22,886 nt of DNA from a virus (IMGVR_UViG_3300043772_002592:1-22886); one strand, 5' to 3'. Counted from the first letter of the stretch, positions 1-22,156 are shown. A program made the numbers and translations. The notes: generated from the letters alone by a model not told the origin.

Positions 1-614
1 GTAGTCTTGATGAAAGTCAAATTACAGAAGATTGGAAAAAGACGTTAGCAACAACTGCATTAGCCGCAGCAACTGCATTTGGTGGTAGTTCATCTTTACA
101 AGCTAAAACAAAGGCACCAACTTCTCCTACTACAATTACTAGAACAGTATCAGTTAAAGAACCATCAAGCAATAGTTCATTTGCAGATTATTTAAAATAT
201 GTAGAAAATGGCAATAAAGTTGGGTATGATCCAAAAAGGAAATTATGGTTTCCACATAAAAGTGTTGAAGGTGGTAGTGATACCATAGCTTATGGTCACA
301 AAATACAATCAGGTGAAGATTTTAGTGCTGGTATAACTGATGCTCAAGCTGAAGATCTTTTTAAAAAAGATATTGAAAAGGCAAAAAGTCAAATTAACAA
401 AGAGTTAAAAGGTACAAAATTAACACCAAAACAAGAAGAAATGTTTATTGATTTTGTGTTTAATATGGGTACTTTAAAGAAGTTTCCTAAATTTACTGAA
501 TTTGCATTGAAAAATGATTTGGAAGGCATGAAAGATCAATATAAAAGATATGCTGGTGGTAAAGAACTTAAAGGTAGAAACACAGCATTTGCCAGAAGAT
601 ATTTAGACGTTTAA
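1..614 (+). CDS. Lysozyme-domain (GH24-like) protein, 5' end outside window
   Basis: Open from the left edge (first full codon at 3) to TAA at 612-614, giving 203 residues without the true start. Residues about 60-203 read as a phage lysozyme (muramidase) domain: YVENG with probable catalytic Glu68, YDP with Asp76, then EGGSDTIAYGHK with Thr94 and the conserved Gly-His. Compared with T4 lysozyme there is an insert of about a dozen residues between the Asp and Thr positions. Upstream lie an Ala-rich hydrophobic stretch (about 15-27, LATTALAAATAFGG) preceded by Lys-Lys, then a Pro/Ser/Thr linker. The hydrophobic stretch could be an export or membrane segment if it is near the true N terminus, or an internal segment of a larger virion protein. 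The expected role is cleavage of host peptidoglycan, at entry or at lysis; the sequence does not say which. The next gene starts one base after the stop, so the two are probably cotranscribed. Confidence 0.8.
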   Translation, partial: SLDESQITEDWKKTLATTALAAATAFGGSSSLQAKTKAPTSPTTITRTVSVKEPSSNSSFADYLKYVENGNKVGYDPKRKLWFPHKSVEGGSDTIAYGHKIQSGEDFSAGITDAQAEDLFKKDIEKAKSQINKELKGTKLTPKQEEMFIDFVFNMGTLKKFPKFTEFALKNDLEGMKDQYKRYAGGKELKGRNTAFARRYLDV

Positions 615-1445: not shown

Positions 1446-1474
1446 TTGACAATCTTATTTTACGTGGTTAATAT
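1446..1474 (+). promoter_or_regulatory. Candidate sigma70-type promoter for the methyltransferase
   Basis: A perfect -35 hexamer TTGACA (1446-1451) is followed by a 17-base spacer and TAATAT (1469-1474, four of six matches to TATAAT). The expected start of transcription is at about 1481, practically at the ATG of the methyltransferase (1482). This would give a leaderless or nearly leaderless message. It is a sequence match only. In such A+T-rich DNA the weak -10 carries little weight; the exact -35 and the ideal spacing are the support. Confidence 0.4.
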
Positions 1475-1481
1475 ATTAAAT

Positions 1482-5724: not shown

Positions 5725-6489
5725 TTAAACGCTTATACCATATCTGTATTTGATTTTATCTTTTATTGCTAAAGCAGCAGTAGTAGATAAATATGTGTTA
5801 CTATATATCGCATCACCAAAATAACATCTAGGCATATAATTATCATTCCAACCACCATATTTTCCTAAAGCAATTGGACCAGCTGTACTTAATTGTACAC
5901 CACCGATTGAAGTATTACTATAGCTATTACCCGCACTATCAAATAAGTAAAAATAACCCGCGTTTGTTGAAGAACTATTTCCAACAACTGCGATATAACG
6001 TCTACCAACAACAGGTGCAATACCAAGGGTATATCCTGTACCATTTCTGCTAAACCAATAGGGTTGTGATGAACTATAGCCAGTTTGTCCTATCCACCAA
6101 TCATGCGTACTACCAGCATAAGCACCAGCTATAATATCTGCACCATATGTTAAGTTTGATGCAACATATTCCCAAGCAACTATAAATGTAATTTCATTGC
6201 TGGTACTAACAGCTAAATTTACTGTTAATCCATTACCTTGTGTTGGTTGATAACCAGTGGTGTTATTCAAATAAATCATACCACCACATTTCCATGGATA
6301 ATATTCGTTTGATATAGAGTATGCGGTACCAACCACACCATTTCCAGATACATCAAGAAAATTACTGGTTGATTTTTTTGGGTTGTAGCTTCTACCTTGA
6401 CTTAGATTGTATCTGTAAACGCTACCACCGGCGGATGGATTGTAAGGAAACGCACTTCCATTAATATTTGCATTTTGTGCTATGGTCAT
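5725..6489 (-). CDS. Single-domain LamG/concanavalin-like jelly-roll protein, 254 aa
   Basis: After a short N terminus the motif SVYRYNLSQGRSYNP...FLDVSGNGVVGT (about 23-56) matches the first strands of the LamG-type repeats in the genes at 12.0-16.7 kb (GLVxxLDAxxxxSYP...DxSGNxxxG). The middle contains aromatic-rich strands (DWWIGQTGY, YWFSRNGTGY). The end, YFGDAIYSNTYLSTTAALAIKDKIKYRYGI, corresponds to the closing strand and helix of such domains. Unlike three of its paralogues it has no inserted domain. The expected role is sugar binding as a fibre-associated adhesin or decoration protein. It starts three bases after the 1837-residue fibre ends. Confidence 0.68.
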   Translation of the reverse strand: MTIAQNANINGSAFPYNPSAGGSVYRYNLSQGRSYNPKKSTSNFLDVSGNGVVGTAYSISNEYYPWKCGGMIYLNNTTGYQPTQGNGLTVNLAVSTSNEITFIVAWEYVASNLTYGADIIAGAYAGSTHDWWIGQTGYSSSQPYWFSRNGTGYTLGIAPVVGRRYIAVVGNSSSTNAGYFYLFDSAGNSYSNTSIGGVQLSTAGPIALGKYGGWNDNYMPRCYFGDAIYSNTYLSTTAALAIKDKIKYRYGISV

Positions 6490-6492
6490 AGA

Positions 6493-9400
6493 TTATAAGT
6501 TAGTGCTAACCAATGCTTGTGCCACAACAGTTCCTATCCAAACAGGTGTACCAGCACCACCTTGATAACTGGTTAACATAAATACGTCTGCAAAACCATT
6601 TGTAGCAGTTAATGTTGGAGCCACACCATTTGCCCATATTACGCTTGTAAATGTAATTGATGCCGTACCAGCGTATTTTACAACCAACATCAAAGTATTT
6701 ACAGATGGATTATTATCTCTGTTACTGTAACTTATTGTTGTTATAGTTGCACCACTTGTCATTGAAACTATGTGTACTGCTGCAGCTGCAACATTAAGTG
6801 TTAGTGTTTGATTTGTACCAGTAATACTTTGTGTAGTACTATTTTGTACAAATTTACCAGCACACTTTAGTGATCCACTAACATCTAGTAATGCGCTTGG
6901 AACCGTTGTACCTATACCAACATTTAAATTCGGATCAAAAGTCATTATTATAGCTTCACTGTTATTTGGCGCAGGATTTCCTGATCCTCTATAAAAATAA
7001 AATCTATTACTATCTGCTGCTGCTCTTGAACTCAATGACCAATAAATTCCAGTCCAACTAGTTTCATTAGCTACTGCTGTATGGCCAAATAAAACATCTG
7101 ATGGATAAGATGTGCCATTAGAATCCAATCTTACTGTAGCTCTATTTGCAATTGAAAAGTCTCTTCCTATTCTTACTCCTAGAGTATCTACTTTAGCAGT
7201 AGGAAATGTTGTACCTATACCCAAATTACCATCGGCTTTTATTCTAACTAATCCAGTAGTACCTCCTGTAGCTTTTTCTACATGTAAATTTTGACTCAAC
7301 ACTGTAGCTCCACCTGCATAATTTATATATGCTGCACCAGCAGAAGCGCCATTATAAAAATTTAATTGATCTCCACTTTGGACTCTTACAGTATAATTTG
7401 CATCATAAGATCCAAATATTATTTCACCTCCACTGCCTGCTCTTACATCTAATTTACCAACTGGATTTGTTGTACCAATACCAACATTACCGCCCATAAA
7501 TATTGCGGATGGTATTGATGTGGAACTTGTAACTTGTAATTTAGCTACTGGATTATTTGTACCAATACCCACTTTATTATTAACTACAACAAAATCGTTT
7601 TGACCATATTGTCCCGCAACAATTCTATCATCCGCAAATACTTCTAGTACAGGTAATCCAGCACTATTGTTTACACTCATCAAGCTATCACTTAAATCAT
7701 CAACCACACTAAATAATGTACCACTGGTACCATCTGTTCTTAATAATGTAGCACCAGCAGTTGTGGAATTTACATGCAATGAAGCAGATGGAGATGTGGT
7801 ACCAATACCTACATTTCCTCCATTCGTTATGCGCATTCTTTCAGTTTGTGAAGAAATATTTGTTGCACTTGATCTAAATATTATACCATTATAACCAGCA
7901 ATATTTGCTTGTAGAGTATTACTAAAATATATACCAACACTATCATTTGATGATCCATTATAAAGTTTATAACTGTCACTTAAACTTATATTTCCATTAA
8001 CTATTGATAGTTTATCTGTTACACTTGTTGTGCCTATACCTAAGTTTCCATTACTATTAATTAATGCATATACACTGGAACCACCTCTATTTCTAAAAAC
8101 ATGATTTGTATTATCAAAATAATTACTTGGATCACCGGCGTTACCTAAATATATTGCTATATTACCAGCAGGTTCAAATATTCTAAAATAATTAGTTGAT
8201 AAATCTAAAAATCTAAGACCACCCACGCCAATTGCACCATTTACATCCAATTTAAAAGCAGGACTTGTTGTACCTATACCAACATTACCACCACCATCTG
8301 CTTTGATAGTCATGCGGGTAGTCATTGTTCCCGCTACATTTTGTCTAAAATAGATATCACCAAATACTTGACCTGAACTTGTAGGATATGTATTATCAAT
8401 ATATGAAGTTGCTATATTTGCATTATAAAATAAATGTAATCCGTGAGTATCAGAATTATTATAACTTATTTTAATTCCATGGTCACTTGTACTTGTATTG
8501 TTAATTCTAACAAATGGATTAGCACCATGTACATTTAACAATGAAGAAGGACCAGCAGTACCTATACCAACGTTTCCTTTGAAATAAGAAGTACCTGTGC
8601 TAGCTTCTACGCTAAACAATAAGTCTGCACCTGTACTATAAATTCCAAATTTTGGTTGTACGCCACTTCCATAGTCAGCGGCGTTTGGAATATGAACACT
8701 CAATACTCTATCTGTATAAGCTCCACCTCTACCAATAAAATAATAATTATTAGCAGATGAAGTAGTACTTTGTACATCAGGAAATCCTATACCAGCCCAT
8801 TTTCCTATAGTAGAAGTGTCTGAAACTCTCAATACGGAAGAGAAAGTATTTTGTGAACCATCACCTACTATTGTTAATCTTCCATTTGGTGATGTTGTGC
8901 CTATACCAACATTACCATTAAATTTAATTCTAACTTTTTCTGATCTGACGGTGCCAGCATCTGATGTGTAGAATACAAGATCACCGGATTCAGCCCCATT
9001 CGTATTTGTTATAACATGTGCGCCTAGTCCGCCATATTCATGTTCATTACCAGCACTATCATTTAATGTAAAATATAAGTTGGAACCATTTCCAACTGTA
9101 CCATCATTCATATGCAAATATAAAAGCCCATAATTCGCAGCCGTACCAGAATATCCAGATTTTCTCAGTCTAAATGGTACAGGTGTGGTAGTTCCTGTAT
9201 GTTCAAATAGAGTTGTTACATCATTTCTATTACCCACATCAACATAAAATGCATTACCTGTACCACCATTGTTGTTAACCACAAATTTAGCACCAGGACT
9301 AGTTGTGCCTATACCCACGTTACCATTGCCTTTGATACGCATGGTTTCTGTTTTACCATTAATGGTTTCACTTGAACCATTTTGGAATATATGGTCTTGA

Positions 9401-12006
9401 TATGTACCATATATCATACTATCAGATCCAGCTACAACATCACCTGTATAATTTCTGAATACTATGTAACCTCCAGTATTGTTATCCAAGAATGTTAGAC
9501 CAGCATAAGTTCCATTGTCAGCGGTATTTCTAAAAGTTATATAATTGCTTGTATTAGAATCAATTAGCAAATTTGTGCCAGTTGTAACTGTTCCAGTGCC
9601 AGTTGGTGCAGAAGCACGAATATTTAATAATGCACCTGGTGCAGTTGTACCAATACCTATGTTTGCTGATGCTTGTAAACTTGCAAGTCTAAATATGCCA
9701 TCCGCAGCTGGTATACCAGATGCACTATAGTCACCCCAATTTAATATACCATTTAAATTCATCCAGAGACTGTTAGAAACTCTGTTTGCCCAGTGGAAAT
9801 TAATATTAGGACCATACTTATCAGCTGATTGAGCATTTCCTACCAAGTCTCTTTCTCTTATGCTTATTGGACTATTTGACCAATCTTCATTATCTGTTAA
9901 ATTTGTATAAGACACCAACATTCTGGTGCTTGTACCGCCACTAAATCCTATATCTCCAACCACTTGTAACTTATTAGCCGGAGCAGTTGAACCTATACCA
10001 ACATTACCACCACTTAATATTGTAAATAACGGCGTGCCGTTATGAATGTGTTGAAAAGCTTTGTTACTATCAGTATAAGTGTACAATGCGCCAGCTAGAG
10101 CGCCATTAGTGGTATCAGATGTTGTATTTTTAAGCAAATATGCATTACTCGTACCATCATCAAATCGAATATATGAAAAGGAACCACCACCATTTAAGTG
10201 TATCCATGGATTGCTAGCTTTATATATGGTAAGAGGCGCACCAGGAGTTGTAGTACCAATACCAACGTTGCCTGTACTTATGATACGCACTCTTTCAACA
10301 CCATTAGTATAAAATCTTGTATTACCATGTGTGAAATTAGCATTATTTTTTGTTAATTGTCCTATTTCTAGAGATCCACCAGCTGCACCATATGTTCCAG
10401 GTGTATAATAAATTCCAGCTTGAGCATCCCAATCCCAATTTGAACCTAAAATCAAACCATTTGTAGCATTGTTACCAATCATCCACAAATTACCATCATT
10501 GTATCCCAATAAATCAAATCCGTAATATCTGACACGTTCATAACCTTGTGTCAATTTAGCTACAACAACATTGCTTGATCCAGCTCCAATTTCAAATTTA
10601 AAATTAGGAACGGTTGTGCCTATGCCAACGTTACCATTATCAAGATTAACTATTGACCCAGTAGTTATTGTTGTTGTACTGTTAAATTTAGCAACATAGT
10701 TTGTTAAACCTGTCACAGTTACACTTGTTCCACTTGATCCAGATGTGCCTGAACTGCCACTGGTTCCGCTTGATCCACTTGATCCACTTGTACCACTACT
10801 TCCACTTGTGCCTGAACTACCACTGGTTCCGCTTGATCCGCTTGTTCCGCTTGATCCACTTGTTCCGCTTGATCCGCTTGATCCAGATGTGCCTGAACTA
10901 CCACTGGTTCCGCTTGATCCGCTTGATCCGCTTGTTCCGCTTGATCCACTGGTTCCACTTGATCCGCTTGATCCACTTGTTCCACTTGATCCACTGGTTC
11001 CACTTGATCCGCTTGATCCAGATGTGCCTGAACTACCACTAGTTCCGCTTGATCCACTTGTTCCACTTGATCCACTGGTTCCACTTGATCCGCTTGATCC
11101 AGATGTGCCTGAACTACCACTAGTTCCGCTTGATCCACTTGTTCCACTTGATCCAGATGTGCCTGCTGCGGTTGCGGTGGATTTATAAACAACACCTGTT
11201 GTATTATCTACTGTTAGATAGTATCCGGTTGCATTAGTAGTTAGACCGTCAATTTCAACTGAACCACTAACATGTAATTTAGCTGTTGGATTATTTGTGC
11301 CAATACCTACTCTATTGTTTCTTAAAACAAAGTCATTTGTACCATATTGACCCATTACAACTCTATCATCCGCAAATACTTCCAATACAGGTAAACCTGC
11401 ACTGTTGTTTACACTCATCAAACTGTCACTTAAATCATCAACTACACTAAATAATGTTCCATTTGTACCATCTGTTCTCAATACAGTAGCACCTGAAGTG
11501 GTTGAGTTTACATGCAATCTAGCAGCAGTAGTAGTTGTTCCAATACCAATGTTTCCACTACTAGAAATAAACAATCTAGTAGCACTACCAGCAGTAAAAG
11601 ACAATCCAACATCATTAGTTCCTAAAATAGACTGTGTACTATTTCCCCATGTAAGACTATTTCCAGAATCTATATATAAAGTACCATTATTAACATAAGC
11701 AGATCCAACTACTTGAAATTTGAATATTGGACTTGTAGTGCCTATACCAACGTTTGTACCATTATCATACACTAAACTATTAGCTATAGTGGAATTTCCT
11801 GTAAATTTACTTAAATAGTTACTAGTAGGTTGTACAGATGTAACAAATGCACCTCCACCACCTGTTGATATTGCACTTGCTGATAGTGGACCTGTAAATA
11901 ATATGGTTGATGCATCAATCAACCTCATTGAATTAGTTACTTGTTCACCTTTAACTGTGAAAAAATCAATTTTACCAACTGATGGATTTATTATGATATC
12001 TGGCAT
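6493..12006 (-). CDS. Giant tail fibre with NVGIGT repeats and collagen-like segment, 1837 aa
   Basis: This is an extended fibre protein. The N terminus (1-80) is unique. Seventeen copies of a G-N-[VIL]-G-I-G-T-x-x-P-x-x-K-L motif follow, starting near residues 85, 152 and 232 and then fourteen more after the array. Each begins a beta-rich segment of about 50-120 residues. Residues 282-428 are 49 uninterrupted Gly-X-Y triplets, all GTS or GSS. An 83-codon segment is duplicated (residues 164-246 and about 1410-1492). The C-terminal cap (about 1735-1837) has VHIVSMTSGATITTI, WANGVAP and WIGTVV, resembling beta-structured fibre tips. The endosialidase-type S74 chaperone that usually closes such repeats is not visible. 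Fibres of this kind are normally homotrimers; receptor contact at the tip is inferred. An exact TATAAATA lies 40 bases upstream of the ATG (12004-12006). Confidence 0.88.
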   Translation of the reverse strand: MPDIIINPSVGKIDFFTVKGEQVTNSMRLIDASTILFTGPLSASAISTGGGGAFVTSVQPTSNYLSKFTGNSTIANSLVYDNGTNVGIGTTSPIFKFQVVGSAYVNNGTLYIDSGNSLTWGNSTQSILGTNDVGLSFTAGSATRLFISSSGNIGIGTTTTAARLHVNSTTSGATVLRTDGTNGTLFSVVDDLSDSLMSVNNSAGLPVLEVFADDRVVMGQYGTNDFVLRNNRVGIGTNNPTAKLHVSGSVEIDGLTTNATGYYLTVDNTTGVVYKSTATAAGTSGSSGTSGSSGTSGSSGTSGSSGSSGTSGSSGTSGSSGTSGSSGTSGSSGSSGTSGSSGTSGSSGSSGTSGSSGTSGSSGSSGTSGSSGTSGSSGSSGTSGSSGTSGSSGTSGSSGTSGSSGTSGSSGSSGTSGSSGTSGSSGTSVTVTGLTNYVAKFNSTTTITTGSIVNLDNGNVGIGTTVPNFKFEIGAGSSNVVVAKLTQGYERVRYYGFDLLGYNDGNLWMIGNNATNGLILGSNWDWDAQAGIYYTPGTYGAAGGSLEIGQLTKNNANFTHGNTRFYTNGVERVRIISTGNVGIGTTTPGAPLTIYKASNPWIHLNGGGSFSYIRFDDGTSNAYLLKNTTSDTTNGALAGALYTYTDSNKAFQHIHNGTPLFTILSGGNVGIGSTAPANKLQVVGDIGFSGGTSTRMLVSYTNLTDNEDWSNSPISIRERDLVGNAQSADKYGPNINFHWANRVSNSLWMNLNGILNWGDYSASGIPAADGIFRLASLQASANIGIGTTAPGALLNIRASAPTGTGTVTTGTNLLIDSNTSNYITFRNTADNGTYAGLTFLDNNTGGYIVFRNYTGDVVAGSDSMIYGTYQDHIFQNGSSETINGKTETMRIKGNGNVGIGTTSPGAKFVVNNNGGTGNAFYVDVGNRNDVTTLFEHTGTTTPVPFRLRKSGYSGTAANYGLLYLHMNDGTVGNGSNLYFTLNDSAGNEHEYGGLGAHVITNTNGAESGDLVFYTSDAGTVRSEKVRIKFNGNVGIGTTSPNGRLTIVGDGSQNTFSSVLRVSDTSTIGKWAGIGFPDVQSTTSSANNYYFIGRGGAYTDRVLSVHIPNAADYGSGVQPKFGIYSTGADLLFSVEASTGTSYFKGNVGIGTAGPSSLLNVHGANPFVRINNTSTSDHGIKISYNNSDTHGLHLFYNANIATSYIDNTYPTSSGQVFGDIYFRQNVAGTMTTRMTIKADGGGNVGIGTTSPAFKLDVNGAIGVGGLRFLDLSTNYFRIFEPAGNIAIYLGNAGDPSNYFDNTNHVFRNRGGSSVYALINSNGNLGIGTTSVTDKLSIVNGNISLSDSYKLYNGSSNDSVGIYFSNTLQANIAGYNGIIFRSSATNISSQTERMRITNGGNVGIGTTSPSASLHVNSTTAGATLLRTDGTSGTLFSVVDDLSDSLMSVNNSAGLPVLEVFADDRIVAGQYGQNDFVVVNNKVGIGTNNPVAKLQVTSSTSIPSAIFMGGNVGIGTTNPVGKLDVRAGSGGEIIFGSYDANYTVRVQSGDQLNFYNGASAGAAYINYAGGATVLSQNLHVEKATGGTTGLVRIKADGNLGIGTTFPTAKVDTLGVRIGRDFSIANRATVRLDSNGTSYPSDVLFGHTAVANETSWTGIYWSLSSRAAADSNRFYFYRGSGNPAPNNSEAIIMTFDPNLNVGIGTTVPSALLDVSGSLKCAGKFVQNSTTQSITGTNQTLTLNVAAAAVHIVSMTSGATITTISYSNRDNNPSVNTLMLVVKYAGTASITFTSVIWANGVAPTLTATNGFADVFMLTSYQGGAGTPVWIGTVVAQALVSTNL
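7531..7779 (-). repeat. 249-bp internal duplication, promoter-distal copy
   Basis: It encodes LHVNSTTAGATLLRTDG through to KVGIGTNNPVAKLQV and pairs with 11269-11517 in the same gene. The 83 codons align without gaps and most residues are identical, including the block VVDDLSDSLMSVNNSAGLP. Confidence 0.85.
10723..11163 (-). repeat. Collagen-like Gly-X-Y array, 49 triplets
   Basis: These 441 bases encode only GTS and GSS triplets (residues 282-428 of the 1837-residue fibre). Codon use is uniform, with units spaced in multiples of 9 and often 27 bases. A perfect 54-base direct repeat lies at 11021-11074 and 11102-11155. This uniformity points to recent expansion by slippage or recombination. 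Long open frames on the opposite strand here (Pro/Leu/Asp-rich) are a by-product of the repeat. Confidence 0.9.
11269..11517 (-). repeat. 249-bp internal duplication, promoter-proximal copy
   Basis: It encodes LHVNSTTSGATVLRTDG through to RVGIGTNNPTAKLHV (residues 164-246) and pairs with 7531-7779. The copies lie on either side of the collagen-like array and most of the repeat region, so recombination between them would delete about 3.7 kb in frame. Confidence 0.85.
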
Positions 12007-12045: not shown

Positions 12046-12053
12046 TATTTATA
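12046..12053 (-). promoter_or_regulatory. T4-type late promoter candidate for the 1837-aa fibre
   Basis: The minus strand reads exactly TATAAATA, 40 bases upstream of the ATG at 12006. It overlaps the stop codon of the upstream jelly-roll gene. The 42-base gap between genes (12007-12048) is one of the few in the leftward block, consistent with a new transcript start. Exact matches also occur by chance inside coding regions, so position and spacing carry the argument. Confidence 0.5.
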
Positions 12054-14091
12054 GACCAAATCTACCTTTTGTAGCATTGTAATTTTGTAAAACTTGAGCG
12101 GCAGATAATGCAATATTGTAGCATCTAGCTGATGCTATTCTACAACTTTGATATCTACCCAAGTGATTTCCACCAATTACTAAATTTTGACCTGACGTTG
12201 TTGTGCCTGTAATTTTTGTTTTTGATGCTCTTACTATTCCATCAACATAAATATGCATATTGGACCCGTCAACGACTCCAACCAAATGATGCCATACACT
12301 ATCGCAAATACTTGATCCATAAACTGCATCGTCTGCCGTTCCTAAACTATTTCTTTGGCCGAAAAATACATTTCCAGTATCAAGAATATGTAAACTTGTG
12401 TATGGAGTAGTACCCACTGCGCCATAATTAGAAATTATAGCAGTATTGCTATTAAATCCGCCGGGAGAATTATCCCAAAACCAAGCTTCCCACGTTATTT
12501 GTGCGTTGTCTGTGTTTTGATTAAGATCAGTCTGAATATATCCATTTACACCATCAAGAATAAAATCTCCACCGTAAAGCGATGAATATGTTACTCCTCC
12601 AGTTAATGTTCCAATTTTACCATTTCCACTTACATCATAAAATGTTGTTCCAGCGCCGCCATAACTATATATATTACCAGCATCAAGATTTAATACTAAT
12701 CCTTGTTGTACAATTGTATTTGCAAATCTAGATTTTTGAGCTTCATAATTTTGAAGTATTTCTGTAGCGGATAAATTTCTATTATATATTTTAACAGAAC
12801 CTATTTTTCCATTCCATATAGACGTTGGAGTTGTAAACCTAGACCCAATAGTTACATTATCAGTATTATCATTAACAGCATTAGTAGGATTTACAACTGT
12901 TCCAGATACTTGAGATCCATTTATGTAAATTTTTATATCTGAAGATCCTGATGCTCTTAAATGTGTCGCGCTAATGTGATACCAAGTATTTAAAGCGAAA
13001 GTATAACTAGCATCTACATATGGACCGCCTCCAGAACCTACGTCAAAATAAACTTTGTTATTTACATAATGAACCAATAAACAATACTCTTCATTTGTAT
13101 CAGAAACGCCTTTGCCAACTATTGCTCCATAATAATTCATCGATGAAGAAATCAAAACCCACGCCTCAACAGTTAATGCTGAAGTGCTTTTTAATGAAGA
13201 TGAATTAGGAATAACTATATAATCATTAGAACCATCAAATAAAAAAGCTCCTTTATTGTAGTAATCAAAAAGAGGCATATTTGATCCGGTTCCATTACCA
13301 AACAGTCCATTATCATCATTTCCTGATAAATCAATTATACTTCTATCAGTATTAGATATACCCCATTTTTGTCCAAGATATGTGTGGACTAATCTTCTTT
13401 CTGTGGTTGTTAGAAGCCTATTAAATACAATAATTTCTGCTGCTTCGCAAGTAGAAACTTCGCTACTGATATTGACGCCTAGCCCAAGCGGCCCTGCGTT
13501 TGCGCCATTAGAATTTGTAGTTATTGCAGTTCCATTACTATATAAATTTGCCAAATCAGTTGAGCTACCACTCCAATCTCCCATATACATTCTCCAAGTA
13601 TTATCTGCTGGATAACCTTGATATTGGACCCATCCTTCTGCATAATATTGATTATAATGACCTCCCCAATGCCCTAATAGCCAATTTGTTCCAGTCGCTC
13701 CTGTATATAGAGTACTTAAAACCCTGTTAGGATTTATTCCTGATAATCTAGTCACACAAAATATTGTATAAGCAGAAGTAACTAAATTAATTGAAGAATT
13801 CCATATTTGTTGACTTGTAGTGCATGCTATTACTTTTCTTGAATTTAAAAAAGCATTTCTAGTTGGTCCAGCAGAAACAGGAACCATATGATAATTAAAT
13901 CCGCTTTTATCACGCCATTGACTCACTGTGGTTCCTGAACTATAACTAAATGTAGTATCATCAGCAGCATCCATCCACATAAGCAAGCCGCCTTTCACTG
14001 GCAAATCAGTTGGATATGATTTATTTTGTGATGCATCTAAACACATCACTAAACCATCTTGCACTATTTTTGGTGAATATTGTAAAGCCAT
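12049..14091 (-). CDS. Triple LamG-type jelly-roll adhesin, 680 aa
   Basis: Three concanavalin/LamG-like domains are visible. The sequence opens with IVQDGLVMCLDASQNKSYP (9-27), the normal first strand of such a domain. A complete jelly-roll (about 34-246) then interrupts: LLMWMDAADDTTF, VSQWRDKSG, closing with EIIVFNRLLTTTERRLVHTY. The first domain resumes at IIDLSGNDDNGLFGNG (about 251) and closes with GKIGSVKIYNRNLSATEILQ (about 430-450). A third, uninterrupted domain runs from IVQQGLVLNLDAGN (about 459) to the end, with IYVDGIV and the closing ALSAAQVLQNYNATKG. These folds bind carbohydrates in many proteins, so host-surface binding is likely. It starts three bases after the previous gene, without a Shine-Dalgarno sequence. 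I see no catalytic motif. Confidence 0.8.
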   Translation of the reverse strand: MALQYSPKIVQDGLVMCLDASQNKSYPTDLPVKGGLLMWMDAADDTTFSYSSGTTVSQWRDKSGFNYHMVPVSAGPTRNAFLNSRKVIACTTSQQIWNSSINLVTSAYTIFCVTRLSGINPNRVLSTLYTGATGTNWLLGHWGGHYNQYYAEGWVQYQGYPADNTWRMYMGDWSGSSTDLANLYSNGTAITTNSNGANAGPLGLGVNISSEVSTCEAAEIIVFNRLLTTTERRLVHTYLGQKWGISNTDRSIIDLSGNDDNGLFGNGTGSNMPLFDYYNKGAFLFDGSNDYIVIPNSSSLKSTSALTVEAWVLISSSMNYYGAIVGKGVSDTNEEYCLLVHYVNNKVYFDVGSGGGPYVDASYTFALNTWYHISATHLRASGSSDIKIYINGSQVSGTVVNPTNAVNDNTDNVTIGSRFTTPTSIWNGKIGSVKIYNRNLSATEILQNYEAQKSRFANTIVQQGLVLNLDAGNIYSYGGAGTTFYDVSGNGKIGTLTGGVTYSSLYGGDFILDGVNGYIQTDLNQNTDNAQITWEAWFWDNSPGGFNSNTAIISNYGAVGTTPYTSLHILDTGNVFFGQRNSLGTADDAVYGSSICDSVWHHLVGVVDGSNMHIYVDGIVRASKTKITGTTTSGQNLVIGGNHLGRYQSCRIASARCYNIALSAAQVLQNYNATKGRFGL

Positions 14092-14094
14092 ATA

Positions 14095-15399
14095 TTATAT
14101 ATATTGTGTTTTTGCTGATTGATAATTAGCAGAGACTTCTGATGCAGAGATCTCTCTATTATACATTCTTATTTCACCCATTTCTCCATTCCAATGCGCT
14201 GTACCAGACCCACGATAACCAAGTCCTCTAGGAGTTGTACCAGATCCAATGCTAGTTACATTTTGACGACCATTTGCAGCTTGTAATGTTGATGTGGTTG
14301 ATTCTAAATTTCCGTTCAAATAGACTTTTATGGTACTTCCACTCCATGCGTATACTACATGATACCATACGTTTGCGGAAATGGTTGATGTAGATCTAGC
14401 ACCAGTATTAAATCCACCATTATTATCAAACCAGCCACTACCATTTCCCAAATCGCTTCCAAAAGCAACTGTACCGCTGCTAGCATATAAAGAAAACCAT
14501 ACAACATTTTCTTGAATATAAATTTGCTGATAGTTACCTGACGTAGGTAAACTATAACACTTTAACCAAAATTCCCATGTACCGGCTGTTTGTCCCGAAT
14601 TGATATTTGATGCAAAATTGATATAAGAACTCGACGCACTATCAAAAACAATTGGGCCTCCTTTAATTCTCGGAAGACCGAAATTTATATGAGCTACTTG
14701 AGAAGGATTTGTTGTATAGTTTTCATATGCCCATCCAAAAGCATTTCCTTGTCCCAATCCCGGCTGTCCAATTAATATCCACTCAGGAGCAGCTATATAA
14801 TCAGATTCTAAAAATCCAGCAGGTTTTCCTAAATCAGTTAAGATATCTCTTACTGTGGAATTGTAAGTATCTGCTCTATGACTGCCCATTACTATGAAAG
14901 TAGCTTTTGGATAATAAGATTTTATTGTATTATAATTAGATACAAATAACGCCAATTCAGTAGTAGTTATTCCGCTACCTGAATAATTATCATAACAATG
15001 ACCATTTAATCTTAATCCTCCAAAAAAACTATCAACAACCCAAGCTCCACCACTTTCGTCCCACACCCACAAATGTAATGCTCTACTTGCATCATAAGTT
15101 TTAGTTCCTGACCTAACATTTAATCCCGGTGTTATACCCTGTCTATTCGCTGCGTCTCCACCATAAGAGCCTTCTGGATAATCAATAGCAAATGCAGTAT
15201 AATAAGTTTTATTTTTATTATATATTTTATTTGTAAATGGATAATTCACGCCTGAAATTAAATCAACAACCCCATCAGTGCTTCCGTTATATAATCCACA
15301 TCCTAACTGTGTCATTTTTCTGCGACTAGTAGCAAACGGATCAAAGCTTAAAATAAGTCCTGATTTAACTATTAACGGCCCATTATTTACTGTACTCAT
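14095..15399 (-). CDS. Adhesin with ILEI/FAM3-like domain and LamG jelly-roll, 434 aa
   Basis: The start IVKSGLILSFDPF (10-22) is the first strand of a LamG-type domain. Residues about 105-228 resemble the ILEI (FAM3/POMGNT1-stem) domain in order: RALHLWVWDESGGAWVVDSF, then ELALFVSNYNTIKSYYP, FIVMGSHRAD, VRDILTDLGKPAG and EWILIGQPGLGQGN. The C-terminal part (about 247-434) is a jelly-roll: TWEFWLK, NVWYHVVYAWSG, IKVYLNGNLES and closing GEMGEIRMYNREISASEVSA. The ILEI fold in POMGNT1 binds sugar, so a glycan-binding role in host recognition is plausible. The ILEI assignment rests on pattern matching by eye. It starts four bases before the next upstream gene's stop codon, and a GGA lies 11 bases before the ATG. 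Confidence 0.75.
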   Translation of the reverse strand: MSTVNNGPLIVKSGLILSFDPFATSRRKMTQLGCGLYNGSTDGVVDLISGVNYPFTNKIYNKNKTYYTAFAIDYPEGSYGGDAANRQGITPGLNVRSGTKTYDASRALHLWVWDESGGAWVVDSFFGGLRLNGHCYDNYSGSGITTTELALFVSNYNTIKSYYPKATFIVMGSHRADTYNSTVRDILTDLGKPAGFLESDYIAAPEWILIGQPGLGQGNAFGWAYENYTTNPSQVAHINFGLPRIKGGPIVFDSASSSYINFASNINSGQTAGTWEFWLKCYSLPTSGNYQQIYIQENVVWFSLYASSGTVAFGSDLGNGSGWFDNNGGFNTGARSTSTISANVWYHVVYAWSGSTIKVYLNGNLESTTSTLQAANGRQNVTSIGSGTTPRGLGYRGSGTAHWNGEMGEIRMYNREISASEVSANYQSAKTQYI

Positions 15400-15402
15400 A
15401 TT

Positions 15403-16725
15403 TTATATTCCATAAGTTTTACGGGTTGCATTGAAATTTTGCAATACTTCTGCGGCAGTTAATAGCCTTCCATAAACCAGTACTTGACCTATTTCTCCTG
15501 TAAAATATTCCCCTCCAGCACCATAAGTTCTTCTTCCTATATTAAAATAAGAAGTACTGGTTGAAACATTCAAAAATGGCGCTCCGGAAGAACTACCATT
15601 ATTTGAAGTGGTTTCTAGAACTCCATTTATATAAATCTTTAAATTCAAATAATTATCATCAAAAACAGCGGTGATATTAGTCCAAACTCCATTTGCATAG
15701 TAATTACTACCTTTTCTTATTACTGCCCTTTGACTTGCTGAAGCGGTATAAGATTCTGCAATTAAAGATTCATCTGCGTAACCACCTGTCCAATCTGCTG
15801 TTATTTCTATACTACCAAAATTTGTATTTCCATCATCTCCCCAACCAACCAGAACTCCATTTTGATTTGTTGAAGTTTTAAACCAAATTGAAATAGATCC
15901 TAAATTAAGCCAAAACGGATCTGTCGCAGTATAAGTTTTTGCTATAATTCTATTACTAGAAGCACCATTAAAAAAATATCCAGTATTATTAAAAGATACA
16001 TTTGTCAAATCTGCATTAACATTATTTCCACTTATATCTAATAAACCACCACCTGCAGCAACAGTATTAGCAGATCTATTAGAGCCAACAACAAATGGCG
16101 TACAATATGTTTTAGATTCATACTGCATACCTGTAACATACATTGATTTATAAGGTAAAGATGGAGTATAAGATGTTTGCACATCCAAACCAACTGCTCC
16201 AACCCAACCGCCTGTTCTGCCGCCTATATTAGCCCCAACACGATACCATCCTAGCCAACCAGATACTTTTGTTATAAACGCATTTGATACTCTTGCTCCT
16301 GTAGACACAACCGTGCCAGTTACTAAGTTAAATATAGCTGTGCTACCGCCATCTCCTAACATTCCAATCGCAAAATTAGTAATGCTTCCATTAACTGAAT
16401 ATACATAACAAGAAATACTATTCCCTCCTTCACCACTTCCACCAAAACGACTTAAATGATGATATCCATCAGTTCCAGATTCTGTTAATAATGTCGCTCC
16501 AGTTCCTATTGGAGTTTGTAATGTAGAATTATATGATTTAGTAAATCTGGTAGGATTGCTTGTCCATTCATTTTCATAGCCAGCGTATGAAAGTCCAGAA
16601 AAATCAGTAGTATTTGAAACTATATTTGTAGTAGCTTCTCCTCTAAAGCTTTTTGAAAATTCACGGTTATAATATAACTGTAAATCTTTTTTTACTATAC
16701 CTCTATTTGCGTGTTGAATTGACAT
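15403..16725 (-). CDS. Adhesin with inserted beta-sandwich and LamG jelly-roll, 440 aa
   Basis: After MSIQHANRGIVKKDLQLYYN (first LamG-type strand, 1-20) comes an inserted segment of about 200 residues. It resembles phage carbohydrate-binding-like sandwiches: GYHHLSRFGGSGEGGNSISC, then AIFNLVTGTVVSTGARV and GWLGWYRVGANI, ending CTPFVVGSNRSA. The LamG-type domain resumes at GGLLDISGNNVNADLT (about 225) with SISIWFKTS, LKIYINGVLETT and closing GEIGQVLVYGRLLTAAEVLQ, ending in ATRKTYGI. The opening and closing match its two leftward neighbours, so the three are paralogues. The likely function is host-surface binding as part of, or attached to, a tail fibre. No catalytic residues are recognisable. 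Confidence 0.78.
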   Translation of the reverse strand: MSIQHANRGIVKKDLQLYYNREFSKSFRGEATTNIVSNTTDFSGLSYAGYENEWTSNPTRFTKSYNSTLQTPIGTGATLLTESGTDGYHHLSRFGGSGEGGNSISCYVYSVNGSITNFAIGMLGDGGSTAIFNLVTGTVVSTGARVSNAFITKVSGWLGWYRVGANIGGRTGGWVGAVGLDVQTSYTPSLPYKSMYVTGMQYESKTYCTPFVVGSNRSANTVAAGGGLLDISGNNVNADLTNVSFNNTGYFFNGASSNRIIAKTYTATDPFWLNLGSISIWFKTSTNQNGVLVGWGDDGNTNFGSIEITADWTGGYADESLIAESYTASASQRAVIRKGSNYYANGVWTNITAVFDDNYLNLKIYINGVLETTSNNGSSSGAPFLNVSTSTSYFNIGRRTYGAGGEYFTGEIGQVLVYGRLLTAAEVLQNFNATRKTYGI

Positions 16726-16729
16726 ATTA

Positions 16730-19700
16730 TTATACTTCAGTAATTAATTCTGGTACATCACTTCTGATTGCGGTAAAATCCCAGAAGAATTCATAAGTTT
16801 TATTAGATTCAAGCAGTGATTTATCATAAGCAACAACAAAGTAATTTTCAGCCACATTAATATCATCTATATATAGTGTTTTACCGCACTTTATTCCAGT
16901 CAATTGTACATTTACACTTTCATGTCTTGCCAATTTACAAATATAATCTGGTAATTGTACTATACATCTACCATTAACTAGTTTATCTTTACCAGTTAAT
17001 CTTATACCATGATATGGACTTTCCAAACTACCATATACCAACTTCTTGCCTGTTTTAGTAGGATGATCAATTTTGAAACTCTTGGTTGAAGCAGCAAAAC
17101 TACCATTTACTTCTAATTTATAAGCCGGTGCGGTTGTGCCAATACCAATGTTACCATTATCTTGTATTACCATGTGCCATGTACTACCGGCATTATTTCC
17201 GATGTACATTTTTGTAGCATAATAATCAAATTGGAAACCATCACCTCCTGATTCTGCTGCAAATAACAAATCACCACCACTTATTGTTATGTTATTGTTT
17301 GTAAATCCAGTTGCTAAAATTGTACCATTAACCTCTAATTTTTGACTAGGACTACTTGTGCCTATACCAACATTACCATTAATATCTATACGCATTCTTT
17401 CACTTACAAGCGCAGTAGCTTGTTGACCAACATAAAATGCCATACCATTAGTTCTATCAGTTGCAATAGTACCTACAAAATAGTTAAGATCAGTAAATTG
17501 TAATTGTGTACCTTGTGCATTATTTCCACTATTAGCAATTCTCAATATAGATTTACCCGTACCAGAAGTATCTGTATTCCATGTACGCACCAATTGGTCA
17601 CCGGTATTACTAGATTGTATATCCAATACACCACTGGGCCCTGCTGTACCTATACCAACATTACCAGATTTATTTATGACCATGTTCAAGTCCCAACCAG
17701 AACCATTATAATCATAAAAAGCTATTCTACCAGCGTCAGCAGAAGCATTGTCAGATCTACCAATTATGTGCACCTGACCTGGATAACTAACGTGATCTTT
17801 ACCCCACAAATAAATACTTGGTTGCGTACTATCAGTGACATGAGTGAATGCTGTTACACCAGTTGTGGTACCTTCGCCAAAAACACTATTTAGTTTAATA
17901 TTACCGGCAACATGTAGTAGCTGTGAAGGACTACTTGTGCCTATACCAAGATTGCCATTTGCATCTATAATTACAGACTGAGTTGTTCCTCTATAAAATG
18001 CTATTTTACCAGCGGCCCAAGTGTTTACTTCCATTTGTCCACTTGAAACACTCATTCCTCCAATTGCACCACTAGCTTCATCATAAACTCTTAATTTGAC
18101 ATTTGAACCAGCAGAATTACTATAAGTACCACCCAAACTAATTACTTCAGTAGCTGACGTTTGTACACCTGTTGTGTTACCTAATTGAAGTCTATAAACA
18201 GCATTTGTAGTGCCAATACCAACATTGCCTTCTACAATTAAACCATTGGTTGGTGCTGCGGTTGAACCATATGTACTACCTATACTTGTATTACCAAATA
18301 CACTCAATTTACTACCTGTAGCACTTAGATTTCCTATAGATACAAAGTTTGTAGTTAAATGTGTAGCATTATCATATATCACTCTAAATCTAGCTACTCC
18401 TGAAGCATTTTTTAGATCAAAATAATCACCGTTATTTGAATTTTGAACATAAACACCATTGCTATCTATACCAAAAGAACCTGATCTTCCAAGTGAAGTA
18501 TTATTTACTGATACTATTGCAGTGCCAGCAGATCCAGCAATTTCTAATTTACTATTTGGTGTTGTAGTACCTATACCAATATTACCAGCACTTGTAATAC
18601 GCATTCTTTCATTTGATCCATTTGTATAGAATTTGTATGAACCTCCACCACCTCCTAAATAAAAATTAAAATCCGGCCTTGTTGATGCAGAATTTCTATT
18701 AATATATTCTATATATCCGCCATTCAAACTTGATTCAGCAGGTCCAAATTCAAAATTTTCATTTGATCCATTTGATATGACTAACTTTGTTAATGGACTA
18801 CTTGTTCCTATACCAATGTTACCATTATCAAATATTGATCCAGTAGCCACCGTAGAAGATGATGCAAACTTAACAACATAATTTGTTACACCAGATACAC
18901 TAACGCTAGTACCACTTGATCCTGAAGTGCCTGAACTGCCGCTGGTTCCACTAGATCCGCTTGATCCGCTTGTTCCACTACTACCAGAACTTCCACTAGT
19001 GCCTGAACTTCCTGAGGTACCAGATGATCCGCTACTTCCACTAGTCCCAGATGATCCACTTGAACCGGATGTACCGGAACTTCCGCTTGTACCAGAACTG
19101 CCTGATGATCCACTTGTTCCACTACTACCAGAACTTCCACTAGTTCCGCTTGATCCACTTGAACCGGATGTACCAGAGCTTCCACTTGTACCAGAACTGC
19201 CTGATGATCCACTTGTGCCTGAACTACCACTGGTTCCGCTTGTTCCACTAGAACCGCTTGTACCAGAACTTCCACTGGTTCCTGATGTGCCTGAACTACC
19301 AGATGTACCACTAGATCCAGAACTGCCTGATGTACCAGATGATCCACTTGTTCCACTAGAACCAGATGTTCCTGAACTACCACTTGTTCCTGAACTGCCT
19401 GAAGAGCCACTAGTACCAGATGAACCGCTTGTGCCGGAAGATCCACTTGTTCCTGAAGATCCTGATGTGCCTGAACTTCCAGAAGATCCTGAAGTACCAC
19501 TTGAACCACTACTACCACTAGTGCCTGAACTGCCTGATGAACCGGAAGTACCGCTTGAACCGGATGTTCCTGAACTGCCACTTGTTCCTGAAGATCCAGA
19601 TGATCCGCTTGTTCCACTTGAACCAGATGTACCACTTGAACCACTACTTCCACTGGTTCCTGAAGATCCGGATGACCCACTCGTTCCACTACTACCAGAA

Positions 19701-20710
19701 CTTCCAGACGTACCACTTGAACCGCTTGTTCCAGAACTGCCTGATGTACCTGAACTTCCACTTGAACCGCTTGTTCCACTACTACCAGAACTTCCACTTG
19801 TACCAGAGGTACCTGAACTTCCACTTGTACCAGATGAACCAGAGGTACCTGAACTTCCACTGGTTCCTGAACTACCTGATGATCCGCTTGTGCCGGAAGA
19901 TCCACTTGATCCGGATGTTCCAGAACTACCTGAACTTCCACTGGTTCCTGAACTACCTGATGATCCACTAGTACCAGATGAACCGCTTGTGCCTGAACTA
20001 CCACTTGTTCCTGAACTGCCTGAAGTGCCTGACGAACCGGAACTTCCAGATGTACCGCTACTTCCACTAGTACCAGAGGAACCAGATGTACCACTTGGTG
20101 TTATTGCATAACTTGCTGATAATGCTTGAACAGCGTAACTAGATGTACCTTCAAATCCAATTCCATTTGTTATATTAGATGTATATTGACTTGCACTGAC
20201 ATTGCCATATACTACAAATGTAGATCCACTTTGAAATGCTATACTTGAAGTAATACTGTTGCTGCTACTTATTAAAGGTATAAATCCTGCGGTTAATGAT
20301 TGTTCTAAATCAGGACCTAATATTACTTGTCTTGAATATCCTGAATCACTGCTACTAACAAAGAAATAATTATTTTGACTGTCCCATAGTAGTGAGCTTA
20401 ATGTATTTGAACCACTATCATACATTTCAATACCAGCATATCTTACATGTGGACTTAATGCATTTAATGTAATAATGTTATCAGTTACAATAAAATGACT
20501 GGAAGTGATATAAATGTTACTTGCACTATAATTTGTAGCATATAAAGTATCTGTTACTAGTAAGTTACTAGCAGTAAGTCTAGTTAAATTATAAATGCCA
20601 CTTGGATTTAGATAACTACTAGTTAATGCATTACTTGAAGTTAAATCGGAAACTTGAGTAGCAATTAAACTACCTTCCAAAAGTAAAGATCCTGATAATA
20701 ATAATGGCAT
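16730..20710 (-). CDS. Giant tail fibre with 132-triplet collagen-like shaft, 1326 aa
   Basis: The N terminus (1-206) is Ser/Thr-rich, beta-type fibre sequence (LTSSNALTSSYL, ASNIYITSSHF). Residues 207-602 are 132 continuous Gly-X-Y triplets, all GTS or GSS. The array runs into VSVSGVTNYVVKFASSS and then seven G-N-[VIL]-G-I-G-T repeats. The C-terminal cap (about 1203-1326) begins STKSFKIDHPTKTGKKLVYG and continues IQLP-like VQLPDYICKL and VNVQLTGIKCG. It matches a cap found on many phage fibres, often after an S74 chaperone, but no S74 motif precedes it here. The cap and NVGIGT style suggest a trimer with a long flexible shaft. It starts three bases after the 480-residue gene and is probably in one late operon with it. 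Confidence 0.88.
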   Translation of the reverse strand: MPLLLSGSLLLEGSLIATQVSDLTSSNALTSSYLNPSGIYNLTRLTASNLLVTDTLYATNYSASNIYITSSHFIVTDNIITLNALSPHVRYAGIEMYDSGSNTLSSLLWDSQNNYFFVSSSDSGYSRQVILGPDLEQSLTAGFIPLISSSNSITSSIAFQSGSTFVVYGNVSASQYTSNITNGIGFEGTSSYAVQALSASYAITPSGTSGSSGTSGSSGTSGSSGSSGTSGSSGTSGSSGTSGSSGTSGSSGSSGTSGSSGSSGTSGSSGSSGTSGSSGSSGTSGSSGTSGSSGTSGSSGTSGTSGSSGSSGTSGSSGSSGTSGSSGTSGSSGTSGSSGSSGTSGSSGSSGTSGSSGSSGTSGSSGTSGSSGSSGTSGSSGTSGSSGTSGSSGSSGTSGSSGSSGTSGSSGSSGTSGSSGTSGSSGTSGSSGTSGSSGSSGTSGSSGTSGSSGTSGSSGTSGSSGSSGTSGSSGTSGTSGSSGTSGSSGTSGTSGSSGTSGSSGSSGTSGSSGTSGSSGSSGTSGSSGSSGTSGSSGSSGTSGSSGTSGSSGSSGTSGSSGSSGTSGSSGTSGSSGSSGTSGSSGSSGTSGSSGTSGSSGTSVSVSGVTNYVVKFASSSTVATGSIFDNGNIGIGTSSPLTKLVISNGSNENFEFGPAESSLNGGYIEYINRNSASTRPDFNFYLGGGGGSYKFYTNGSNERMRITSAGNIGIGTTTPNSKLEIAGSAGTAIVSVNNTSLGRSGSFGIDSNGVYVQNSNNGDYFDLKNASGVARFRVIYDNATHLTTNFVSIGNLSATGSKLSVFGNTSIGSTYGSTAAPTNGLIVEGNVGIGTTNAVYRLQLGNTTGVQTSATEVISLGGTYSNSAGSNVKLRVYDEASGAIGGMSVSSGQMEVNTWAAGKIAFYRGTTQSVIIDANGNLGIGTSSPSQLLHVAGNIKLNSVFGEGTTTGVTAFTHVTDSTQPSIYLWGKDHVSYPGQVHIIGRSDNASADAGRIAFYDYNGSGWDLNMVINKSGNVGIGTAGPSGVLDIQSSNTGDQLVRTWNTDTSGTGKSILRIANSGNNAQGTQLQFTDLNYFVGTIATDRTNGMAFYVGQQATALVSERMRIDINGNVGIGTSSPSQKLEVNGTILATGFTNNNITISGGDLLFAAESGGDGFQFDYYATKMYIGNNAGSTWHMVIQDNGNIGIGTTAPAYKLEVNGSFAASTKSFKIDHPTKTGKKLVYGSLESPYHGIRLTGKDKLVNGRCIVQLPDYICKLARHESVNVQLTGIKCGKTLYIDDINVAENYFVVAYDKSLLESNKTYEFFWDFTAIRSDVPELITEV
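18905..20092 (-). repeat. Collagen-like Gly-X-Y array, 132 triplets
   Basis: These 1188 bases encode only GTS and GSS triplets (residues 207-602 of the 1326-residue fibre), without proline or charged residues. Synonymous codons vary much more than in the 10723-11163 array, so the DNA is less repetitive than the protein. That fits an older array held by selection on the protein. Confidence 0.9.
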
Positions 20711-20713
20711 AAG

Positions 20714-22156
20714 TTATGTTATTCTTATAAGTATAAAGTTTCCGTTTCTATATAACCCGCCAAGTGGTACTCCACCAAGAGCTGCTGCAGCATCATCAAT
20801 AAATTCAAGAGAAGATGATACTTGTGTTAATATAACTATTTGATTTAATGGATTAACATAACTAGAAGTATCAGCATTTAATGCCCAACTGCTTGTTATT
20901 GGATATGTACTACCTGTTATTAAATCATTATTAACTGATGAACTTATTACTTGTAATCCGCTTCTGGATGCAATTGCATATCCACTCGCAGAAATAGGAA
21001 AATTAATTCTAGTTACGTTAGGATTTACAAGTGAAATGTTCTGTGGAATTATTTGATTAAAATTTATGTCATATGTTTGTATTAATATTGGTTTTATATT
21101 AAGGCTATGAGTAAATTCCCAAATTGAACTACTATAAAAAGATGAACTAACCGCATTAGTAATATTTATACCAACTGCATTTAAACTGTAACTGGCAGTT
21201 ATTGCCCAACTGCTTGTTATTGGATATGTACTTCCAGTCGTTAAATTTGCACCTCCAGTTGTTACTAATCCTGTTGTAGATGACAACAAATATCTAAATT
21301 GACCCTCAGATCCTGACGGCGGAGCTGATGTAAAGTTTAAAATTGATCCTGTAGTGGTGTAATCAGTTGATGGTTTTTTTACTAAACCATTAATTGTTAC
21401 TAAAATATCATAATCTTGTAATACACTTTGAGTTAATGCATATTGAGTAGTACTACCATCACCTGTAAAATATTGAGCATTAAGTGAAGATGTTAATATA
21501 CTAATATTAGCAGAGCTATAAAATCTTCTAACTTCTAATTCTAATGCTGCTGGTGGTATTGAGGTGAGTGTCAGTGTGGTACCAAAAACACTATAATCAG
21601 TTGATGGTTCTTGTTCAAGACCATCTAAAAATACCAATAATTGAGTGGGATCATAAGTAGAAAAACTTAGTGTATATGTGTTGGATACGCCATCTGTTAC
21701 AAAATTATCTACTGATGATGAAAAATTGATGTCAATTATACTAGAAGTTGATACAAATATATTACCCCCACCTGCAGAAGCAGCATTTAATGCATATGAA
21801 GCAGTTAATGCATATGATGAACTATTAGAATTAACTGAATAACTACTTGAATATGCAAATGCACTACTTAATGCATATGATGCACTTATAGAATTGAATG
21901 CCCAACTACTAGTAATTGGATATGTAGATCCTGTAATTATAGATGACCCAGCATTTAATGCATATGAAGCAGTTAATGCATATGATGAACTATCAATATA
22001 ACCAATAAATTTACTTGCACTTATTGTAGATGCTGTTATTGCACCAAGGAAATTGCTACTACTAACAACAGTAAATTTGTTGCTAGCAGTCACTTCACCC
22101 CTAAATACATAAGGTTCACATGCTATTTTTTTGCCTATGAAAGTAAAATCAGACAT
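20714..22156 (-). CDS. Tail fibre protein with ASYALNA repeats, 480 aa
   Basis: The N-terminal 140 residues are repeats of SSYALTASYALNA type, and TGSTYPITSSWA occurs three times in the protein. Two consecutive copies of a beta-sandwich-like module follow: YTLSFSTYDPTQLLVFLDGLEQEPSTDY...LTLTSIPP and YALTQSVLQDYDILVTINGLVKKPSTDY...LNFTSAPP. Each has the FLDG/INGL-x-(2)-PSTDY ... F-T-[SA]-x-PP pattern common in phage fibres. The C terminus reads EFTHSLNIKPILIQTYD, then FILIRIT. It is probably the connector or proximal part of the fibre, but this is inference from its place before the giant fibre. It begins two bases after the 104-residue gene ends. Confidence 0.82.
   Translation of the reverse strand: MSDFTFIGKKIACEPYVFRGEVTASNKFTVVSSSNFLGAITASTISASKFIGYIDSSSYALTASYALNAGSSIITGSTYPITSSWAFNSISASYALSSAFAYSSSYSVNSNSSSYALTASYALNAASAGGGNIFVSTSSIIDINFSSSVDNFVTDGVSNTYTLSFSTYDPTQLLVFLDGLEQEPSTDYSVFGTTLTLTSIPPAALELEVRRFYSSANISILTSSLNAQYFTGDGSTTQYALTQSVLQDYDILVTINGLVKKPSTDYTTTGSILNFTSAPPSGSEGQFRYLLSSTTGLVTTGGANLTTGSTYPITSSWAITASYSLNAVGINITNAVSSSFYSSSIWEFTHSLNIKPILIQTYDINFNQIIPQNISLVNPNVTRINFPISASGYAIASRSGLQVISSSVNNDLITGSTYPITSSWALNADTSSYVNPLNQIVILTQVSSSLEFIDDAAAALGGVPLGGLYRNGNFILIRIT
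20883..21231 (-). repeat. 28-bp direct repeats coding TGSTYPITSSWA
   Basis: Positions 20883-20910 and 21204-21231 are identical over 28 bases. A third, diverged copy lies at 21900-21939. All encode the YPITSSWA module of the 480-residue fibre protein. Confidence 0.75.
21781..21993 (-). repeat. 45-bp perfect direct repeat in the 480-aa fibre gene
   Basis: Positions 21781-21825 and 21949-21993 are identical over 45 bases and encode SSYALTASYALNA segments. Identity at the DNA level, 168 bases apart and in frame, suggests recent duplication or gene conversion. Confidence 0.8.

Follow-up and report, generated by a model that had tools for sequence, protein, structure and literature searches.

A fixed loop of a LamG scaffold holds different whole domains in three adjacent genes of a virus

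How three neighboring genes of one virus came to share both ends of a lectin-like fold while carrying different domains between them is the question raised by a 22.9 kb linear virus record (IMGVR_UViG_3300043772_002592:1-22886; the whole stretch of 22,886 nucleotides is referred to below as the window). A sequence-only reading had proposed that each of these genes, here termed P1, P2 and P3, begins with the first strand of a LamG domain, continues with an insert, and then resumes with the LamG body. The open reading frames (ORFs) are as described, and the Pfam family Laminin_G_3 (PF13385; cut-off 27.6 bits) is matched only after the insert, at residues 277-427 of P1 (E 8e-13, 49 bits), at residues 256-423 of P2 (E 1e-17, 65 bits), and in three stretches of P3 (E 7e-44, 150 bits). 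The answer that we consider likely is that P1-P3 form a two-slot adhesin cassette on a LamG scaffold, diversified by recombination at short constant frames.

The first point to settle is whether the N-terminal strand belongs to the fold that resumes some 200 residues later. P1 and P2 were modelled singly with AlphaFold, giving predicted local distance difference test (pLDDT) and predicted template-modelling (pTM) scores of 80.5 and 0.78 for P1 (from an alignment of 38 rows) and 73.9 and 0.76 for P2. When compared with a single-domain lectin chain, 5hon_A (AbnA domain 4, 206 residues), using VIA, the P1 model aligned over 190 residues (model 11..432, Z 17.8, root-mean-square deviation (rmsd) 3.1) and the P2 model over 187 residues (model 11..427, Z 19.3, rmsd 2.8). 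Because of these alignment ranges, residues 11-20 of both proteins can be placed on the first strand of the lectin fold, with the insert skipped, and in the models the N-terminal strand is thus part of the C-terminal LamG fold. The 19 rows of the P2 alignment all carry its own type of insert, so uninserted homologs could not have forced that result. Clostridial neurotoxin binding domains also appeared in the fold lists, where they share the LamG-like fold and no functional relation is implied.

A second means of examining the insertion point was a survey of relatives. Searching viral contigs with the P1 sequence alone gave no match, and a Protein Data Bank (PDB) sequence search with it found no relative; the 235 related loci collected (L numbers below) came from profile searches. 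A hidden Markov model (HMM) built from 267 uninserted LamGs was split after strand 1, and the distance from strand 1 to the body, 190-224 residues in P1-P3, proved to be bimodal across the 235 loci, being either less than ~30 or 135-325 residues with none between. The shared insertion point of the sequence-only reading is accordingly beyond chance. Among viral loci, 69 gaps of at least 80 residues were seen in a first pass and about 87 in a wider one. Bacterial loci yielded 83 plain LamGs and no convincing insertion, two multi-domain cases being tandem LamGs. The sample is biased, as two of the queries carried inserts; loci fetched with the uninserted profile alone comprised 11 inserted, 154 plain and 3 nested or multiple cases. 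Under a stricter test, in which one whole-domain HMM had to find both halves, 24 of 25 large insertions fell in the connection between strands 1 and 2. The exception, in Synechococcus cyanophage S-SKS1 (L260:6170-9052), is a complete LamG inserted at another loop (~column 126), demonstrating that other LamG loops can take domains, if rarely. In P2 the insert also replaces the "DLSGN" segment, which shifts its right border inward by ~20 HMM columns relative to P1 and P3, still within the same connection. Neither a strand lying outside the C-terminal LamG fold nor inserts in different loops, the outcomes named as fatal to the sequence-only reading, was encountered for P1-P3. One group of apparent inserts (cluster 5; L040, L077, L214 and L222) was set aside as tandem LamG.

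Inserted LamGs also occur in isolated phages. In Flavobacterium phage immuto, a LamG with a ~230-residue gap after a weakly matched strand 1 adjoins two uninserted LamG genes with a structural annotation. Gaps of ~200 residues in Prochlorococcus phage Syn1 and of ~380 residues in Synechococcus phage S-H9-2 interrupt the final LamG of a large protein; the architecture is therefore not an assembly artefact. Homologs are annotated as structural or virion proteins in phage immuto and in S-PM2, and over its whole length P1 matches phrog_8510 (E 4.5e-26), the LamG/ConA-like "virion structural proteins" of T4-like cyanophages (S-PM2 and Syn1). Arrays of 2-4 inserted LamG genes were found at six further loci (L114, L164, L149, L124, L122 and L131), some of the genes sharing a few bases where one stops and the next starts. 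In three other loci (L006:6705-8465, L257:6161-8252 and L259:4890-6671), inserted LamGs have an extra domain beyond the usual C-terminal helix, possibly a third slot.

The cargo of the loop is diverse. Clustering resolved inserts of unrelated sequence into a large group of sandwiches resembling carbohydrate-binding modules (CBMs), smaller sandwich groups, a P3-type jelly-roll, a glycine-rich group, an ILEI-like group and a few singletons, or five or more types. The insert of L008 matches Gly_rich_2 (PF21722; E 2.8e-18, 67.2 bits, cut-off 24.3), that of L113 matches CBM_4_9 below the cut-off (E 0.004), and one singleton has a sub-threshold match to an adhesive domain. That the inserts of P1-P3 differ, as the sequence-only reading held, is borne out, while its labels for them fared unevenly. 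The P1 insert, described there as a carbohydrate-binding-like sandwich, has no Pfam match, CBM_4_9 included, but its modelled fold (residues 22-226) resembles a domain of the Pa193 phage baseplate/tail-fibre entry 9b45 (9b45_1, chain 187-397; VIA Z 17.7, rmsd 2.6, 179 aligned), and homologous inserts are found in L001-L003, L024, L103 and L252.

For the P2 insert, the name ILEI is a lead only and weakly supported. The insert has no match to Pfam ILEI (PF15711) at E 10 and falls in no Pfam family; with human FAM3C/ILEI, hhalign gave a P of 0.0035 and a probability of 9%, collinear over 99 columns. Its modelled core consists of strand 108-114, helix 145-162, strand 166-172, helix 181-189 and strand 207-211. 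Matches to the LamG part, and not to the insert, took up the VIA and Foldseek lists for P2; a PDB sequence search with P2 returned only a pentraxin (E 0.006), and a PDB search with a profile of the insert only a chance hit. The domain occurs at about 20 IMG/VR loci, in the LamG loop at every one examined, and has no match among 50,697 phage records. Its conserved core (YPEGxYGGD, GHCYDNY, GSHRAD and GKPGLGxGN) suggests a defined active or binding site.

In P3 the cargo appears to be another LamG-like jelly-roll with its own strand 1; a stand-alone relative of it is present in L235, and another occupies the P2-like locus of L110. The third domain of the 680-residue P3 is a complete LamG that, as had been noted, has no insert. 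The proposed fourth paralogue without an insert (5725-6489) is plausible: it has no Pfam match, but hhalign aligns it weakly and collinearly with the full length of the LamG profile (P 7e-5, probability 62%, columns 11-229).

Comparison of relatives shows that the cargo is exchanged. Between them, the changes are swaps of whole domains and not point variation, and the same core was seen with other inserts or none, both at the syntenic P2 position and among similar bodies. The gene syntenic to P2 keeps its MSTVNNGP-like start, and no fewer than five kinds of insert are found in it. The window has the ILEI-like domain there, L008/L010/L011 and L021 have a glycine-rich one, L013 and L111 share one sandwich type while L113 has a second, and L110 has the P3-type jelly-roll. 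A single LamG body (75-78% identical over ~198 residues) exists in three loop states, namely empty (L001), glycine-rich (L012) and sandwich (L124), and the P2 body of the window is 59% identical to the L252_+3560 body, which has a sandwich insert. The converse also occurs. The body has been swapped behind a constant insert in the ILEI-like protein of L001 versus L002 and in P3 of L008 versus L010, two loci in which P1 and P2 are nearly identical. Insert and LamG body are two independently exchanged slots; the proposal that the loop is a docking site for exchangeable modules is therefore supported yet incomplete.

The DNA that borders both slots is constant. Up to P1 residue 35 the window and L008/L010 share 96% identity; with L008, identity is 81% at P1 217-254 (the insert end and hinge), 80% from P2 411 to P3 282 (the P3 insert being common to both), 88% at P3 446-488 and 98% from P3 658 on; a further block joins P1 and P2 (Table 1). 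No similarity to L008 was detectable between the conserved blocks, which, the shared P3 insert aside, correspond to the start with strand 1, the DLSGN hinge and the C-terminal helix. Information content is likewise high at the N-terminal frame (2.4 bits), hinge (2.3 bits) and tail (2.7 bits) versus 0.96 bits at mid-body, bacterial LamGs being similar. Between paralogues, the tails of P1 and P3 share a 39-base repeat (82%).

These observations fit the following scheme, of which the architecture, the common insertion point, the frame blocks and the exchange in both slots are shown by the comparisons above. The N-terminal strand, together with the C-terminal strand and helix, is the constant frame of a LamG (ConA-like) jelly-roll, and the connection between strands 1 and 2 leaves the sandwich and takes up whole folded domains with the core unbroken. 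Slot A is this loop, holding a CBM-like sandwich, a second jelly-roll, an ILEI-like, glycine-rich or other domain, or nothing; slot B is the LamG body with its binding-type loops, varying independently of slot A. Since the short frame DNA that borders both slots is common to phages, and partly to paralogues, homologous recombination in co-infection could swap modules in frame, and the conserved blocks are consistent with such recombination at the frames. Docking of these adhesin-type proteins on the virion would most likely fall to the constant frame (N-terminal peptide, strand 1 and C-terminal helix), with the variable modules probably turned toward the host, where they may bind surface glycans or proteins.

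Several points weigh against this proposal. The split HMM alone missed strand 1 of P1 (E 120), which is backed instead by relatives L001-L003, with GLVFYFDAKEPKSY at the equivalent place, and by the AlphaFold model. Strand pairing was judged from structural alignment ranges and not from coordinates, and the nesting of a jelly-roll inside the outer LamG of P3 is read from sequence. Some apparent pairs of bodies (L125/L126 and L139/L141) come from end-truncated contigs and were discounted. Because the frames are also conserved in bacterial LamGs, part of that conservation must be structural and not a recombination device. Finally, host binding and an effect on host range, including the diversification by insert exchange suggested in the sequence-only reading, are inferred from family knowledge and from the precedent of evolved Dit proteins discussed below.

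Among other explanations, the one that survives best, unlikely as we judge it, is that the inserts are real but neutral or architectural, serving as spacers or in trimerisation or folding, with their diversity reflecting drift and loop tolerance and no role in host recognition. The loop is permissive, many uninserted LamGs share arrays with inserted ones, and the functions are predicted only; however, the cargo is mostly carbohydrate-binding- or adhesin-like (Gly_rich_2, the weak CBM_4_9 match and the tail-fibre match of Pa193), the neighborhood is one of fibres and host recognition (collagen-like fibres, a tail-fibre chaperone and sugar-modifying genes), and rapid exchange among close relatives suggests selection. 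Somewhat less probable still is that inserts were gained once per lineage in the distant past and inherited vertically, the apparent swaps being gene conversion between paralogues or mis-assigned orthology. The 50-65% conservation of ILEI-like inserts among loci, in all of which they occupy one and the same slot, would be expected on those grounds, as would the repeat common to the P1 and P3 tails, but unrelated modules lie between flanks that are 95-98% identical when L008 and L010 are compared with the window, and the differing P3 body of the otherwise near-identical L008 and L010 is equally hard to explain. The notion that the N-terminal strand is a leader or docking peptide, the proteins being tandem beads of an insert and a trimmed LamG with a look-alike insertion point, would suit the HMM's failure on P1 and the end-to-end shuffling common in phage receptor-binding proteins (PMC10684548), but it is very improbable and largely refuted by the placement of residues 11-20 in both models, by uninserted relatives in which strand 1 is contiguous with a closely similar body, and by a P3 body profile match that begins near the end of the N-terminal one.

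The two-slot cassette has its closest precedent in the evolved Dit (evoDit) proteins found in siphophages of lactococci and other Gram-positive bacteria. In these, CBMs are inserted within a conserved virion scaffold, the inserts forming 16 groups (PMC10688798, PMC6669499), and such insertions have been shown to promote adsorption and widen infection (PMC10688798). The scaffold there is the Dit baseplate hub, whereas here it is a LamG/ConA-like fold in small proteins of multi-gene arrays in aquatic phages; moreover, the cargo here includes ILEI-like, LamG-like and Gly_rich_2 domains, and the scaffold body is itself exchanged. No Dit family is among the Pfam and PHROG matches of P1-P3, whose core matches Laminin_G_3 and ConA-like lectin folds. 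P1-P3 work like evolved Dit but are not evolved Dit. Exchange of unrelated domains between near-identical flanks has been reported for phage receptor-binding proteins (Smug et al. 2023, PMC10684548), where the examples swap terminal domains; here, the exchanged unit lies within a fold, where it occupies a fixed loop flanked by constant sequence. In the adhesins of T2-type gp38, constant glycine-rich motifs frame hypervariable loops (PMC12892980), which resembles the constant frames described here, and a glycine-rich domain (Gly_rich_2, which need not be gp38-like) is among the present cargo. However, in gp38 short loops vary on a polyglycine sandwich, whereas here whole domains do. Domain shuffling of receptor-binding proteins (PMC10684548) and CBM insertion in Dit were thus already known; a nested LamG insertion in phages, or its exchange, was not found described in the literature searched, which excluded most subscription journals, and neither was a LamG scaffold that combines a fixed nested socket, several cargo types and an independently exchanged body.

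A fixed loop with constant frames amounts to a searchable rule, by which unknown adhesin domains could be collected from metagenomes between strand 1 and the DLSGN hinge. It would extend the evolved-Dit idea from one dairy-phage baseplate protein to arrays of lectin scaffolds in phages of many aquatic samples, and adds nested domain insertion to end-to-end shuffling as a means of diversifying phage surfaces. More speculatively, and with the balance tilted somewhat against it, LamG arrays may be a widespread two-slot plug-in whose frames both dock the protein and anchor recombination across hosts, with the ILEI-like domain, so far seen only in this loop, as a new class of host-binding or host-modifying module.

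Table 1. Features of the window discussed in the text (residue numbers refer to the protein named).
Feature	Position	Strand	Basis or remark
P1, LamG gene	15403-16725	minus	
P1 frame N: N-terminal peptide and LamG strand 1, residues 1-29, ..DLQLYYNREFSKSFRG	16639..16725	minus	model strand 15-20 aligns with start of single lectin domain
P1 insert, CBM-like beta-sandwich, residues 30-226	16048..16638	minus	fold match to Pa193 domain; homologous inserts in relatives
P1 LamG body: hinge LLDISGNN, remaining strands, C-terminal helix	15403..16047	minus	Laminin_G_3; body HMM E 4e-30
Constant DNA block: P1 C-terminal helix, intergenic bases, P2 start (P1 421 to P2 12)	15364..15465	minus	95% identical to L008/L010, 92% to L021/L022; adjoining modules unrelated
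P2, LamG gene	14095-15399	minus	
P2 frame N: N-terminal peptide and LamG strand 1, residues 1-22, ..GLILSFDP	15334..15399	minus	N HMM E 0.008; model strand 15-19 aligns with lectin start
P2 insert, ILEI-like alpha/beta domain, residues 23-246	14662..15333	minus	
P2 LamG body and C-terminal helix, residues 247-434	14095..14661	minus	Laminin_G_3
P3, LamG gene	12049-14091	minus	
P3 frame N: N-terminal peptide and strand 1 of outer LamG, residues 1-28	14008..14091	minus	N HMM E 7e-12
P3 insert: LamG-like jelly-roll with own strand 1, residues 29-248	13348..14007	minus	LamG HMM E 5e-16, columns 10-216
P3 outer LamG body, IIDLSGN to C-terminal helix, residues 249-456	12724..13347	minus	body HMM E 6e-46 from column 33 of 229
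P3 third domain: complete uninserted LamG, residues 457-680	12049..12723	minus	LamG HMM E 6e-60, full length
Probable fourth LamG paralogue, no insert	5725..6489	minus	hhalign to LamG profile
Long fibre-type protein, SGTSGS collagen-like repeats	6493-12006	minus	
Long fibre-type protein, SGTSGS collagen-like repeats	16730-20710	minus	
T7-type tail-fibre N-terminal domain	20714-22156	minus	
Tail-fibre assembly chaperone	5158-5721	minus	
Sulfotransferase	4294-5118		Sulfotransfer_3, E 8e-17; fibre region
FkbM methyltransferase	1446-2135		
Two glycosyltransferase-like genes	2132-3867		by eye; one with sub-threshold Pfam match

The gene neighborhood of the window is like that seen in host recognition clusters of T4-like pelagi- and cyanomyophages (PMC7029224), in whose hypervariable host-recognition regions ConA and collagen domains are present (PMC7029224). 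The ends of the fibre proteins that adjoin the LamG genes are 96-98% identical to L008, with the swapped modules between them. These two fibre-type proteins, on both sides of the LamG genes, also have GNVGIGTT repeats. The sulfotransferase, FkbM methyltransferase and glycosyltransferase-like genes could possibly modify glycans of the host or the virion. Finally, an ORF at window 3-611, truncated where the record begins, encodes a Phage_lysozyme domain (E 6e-12).

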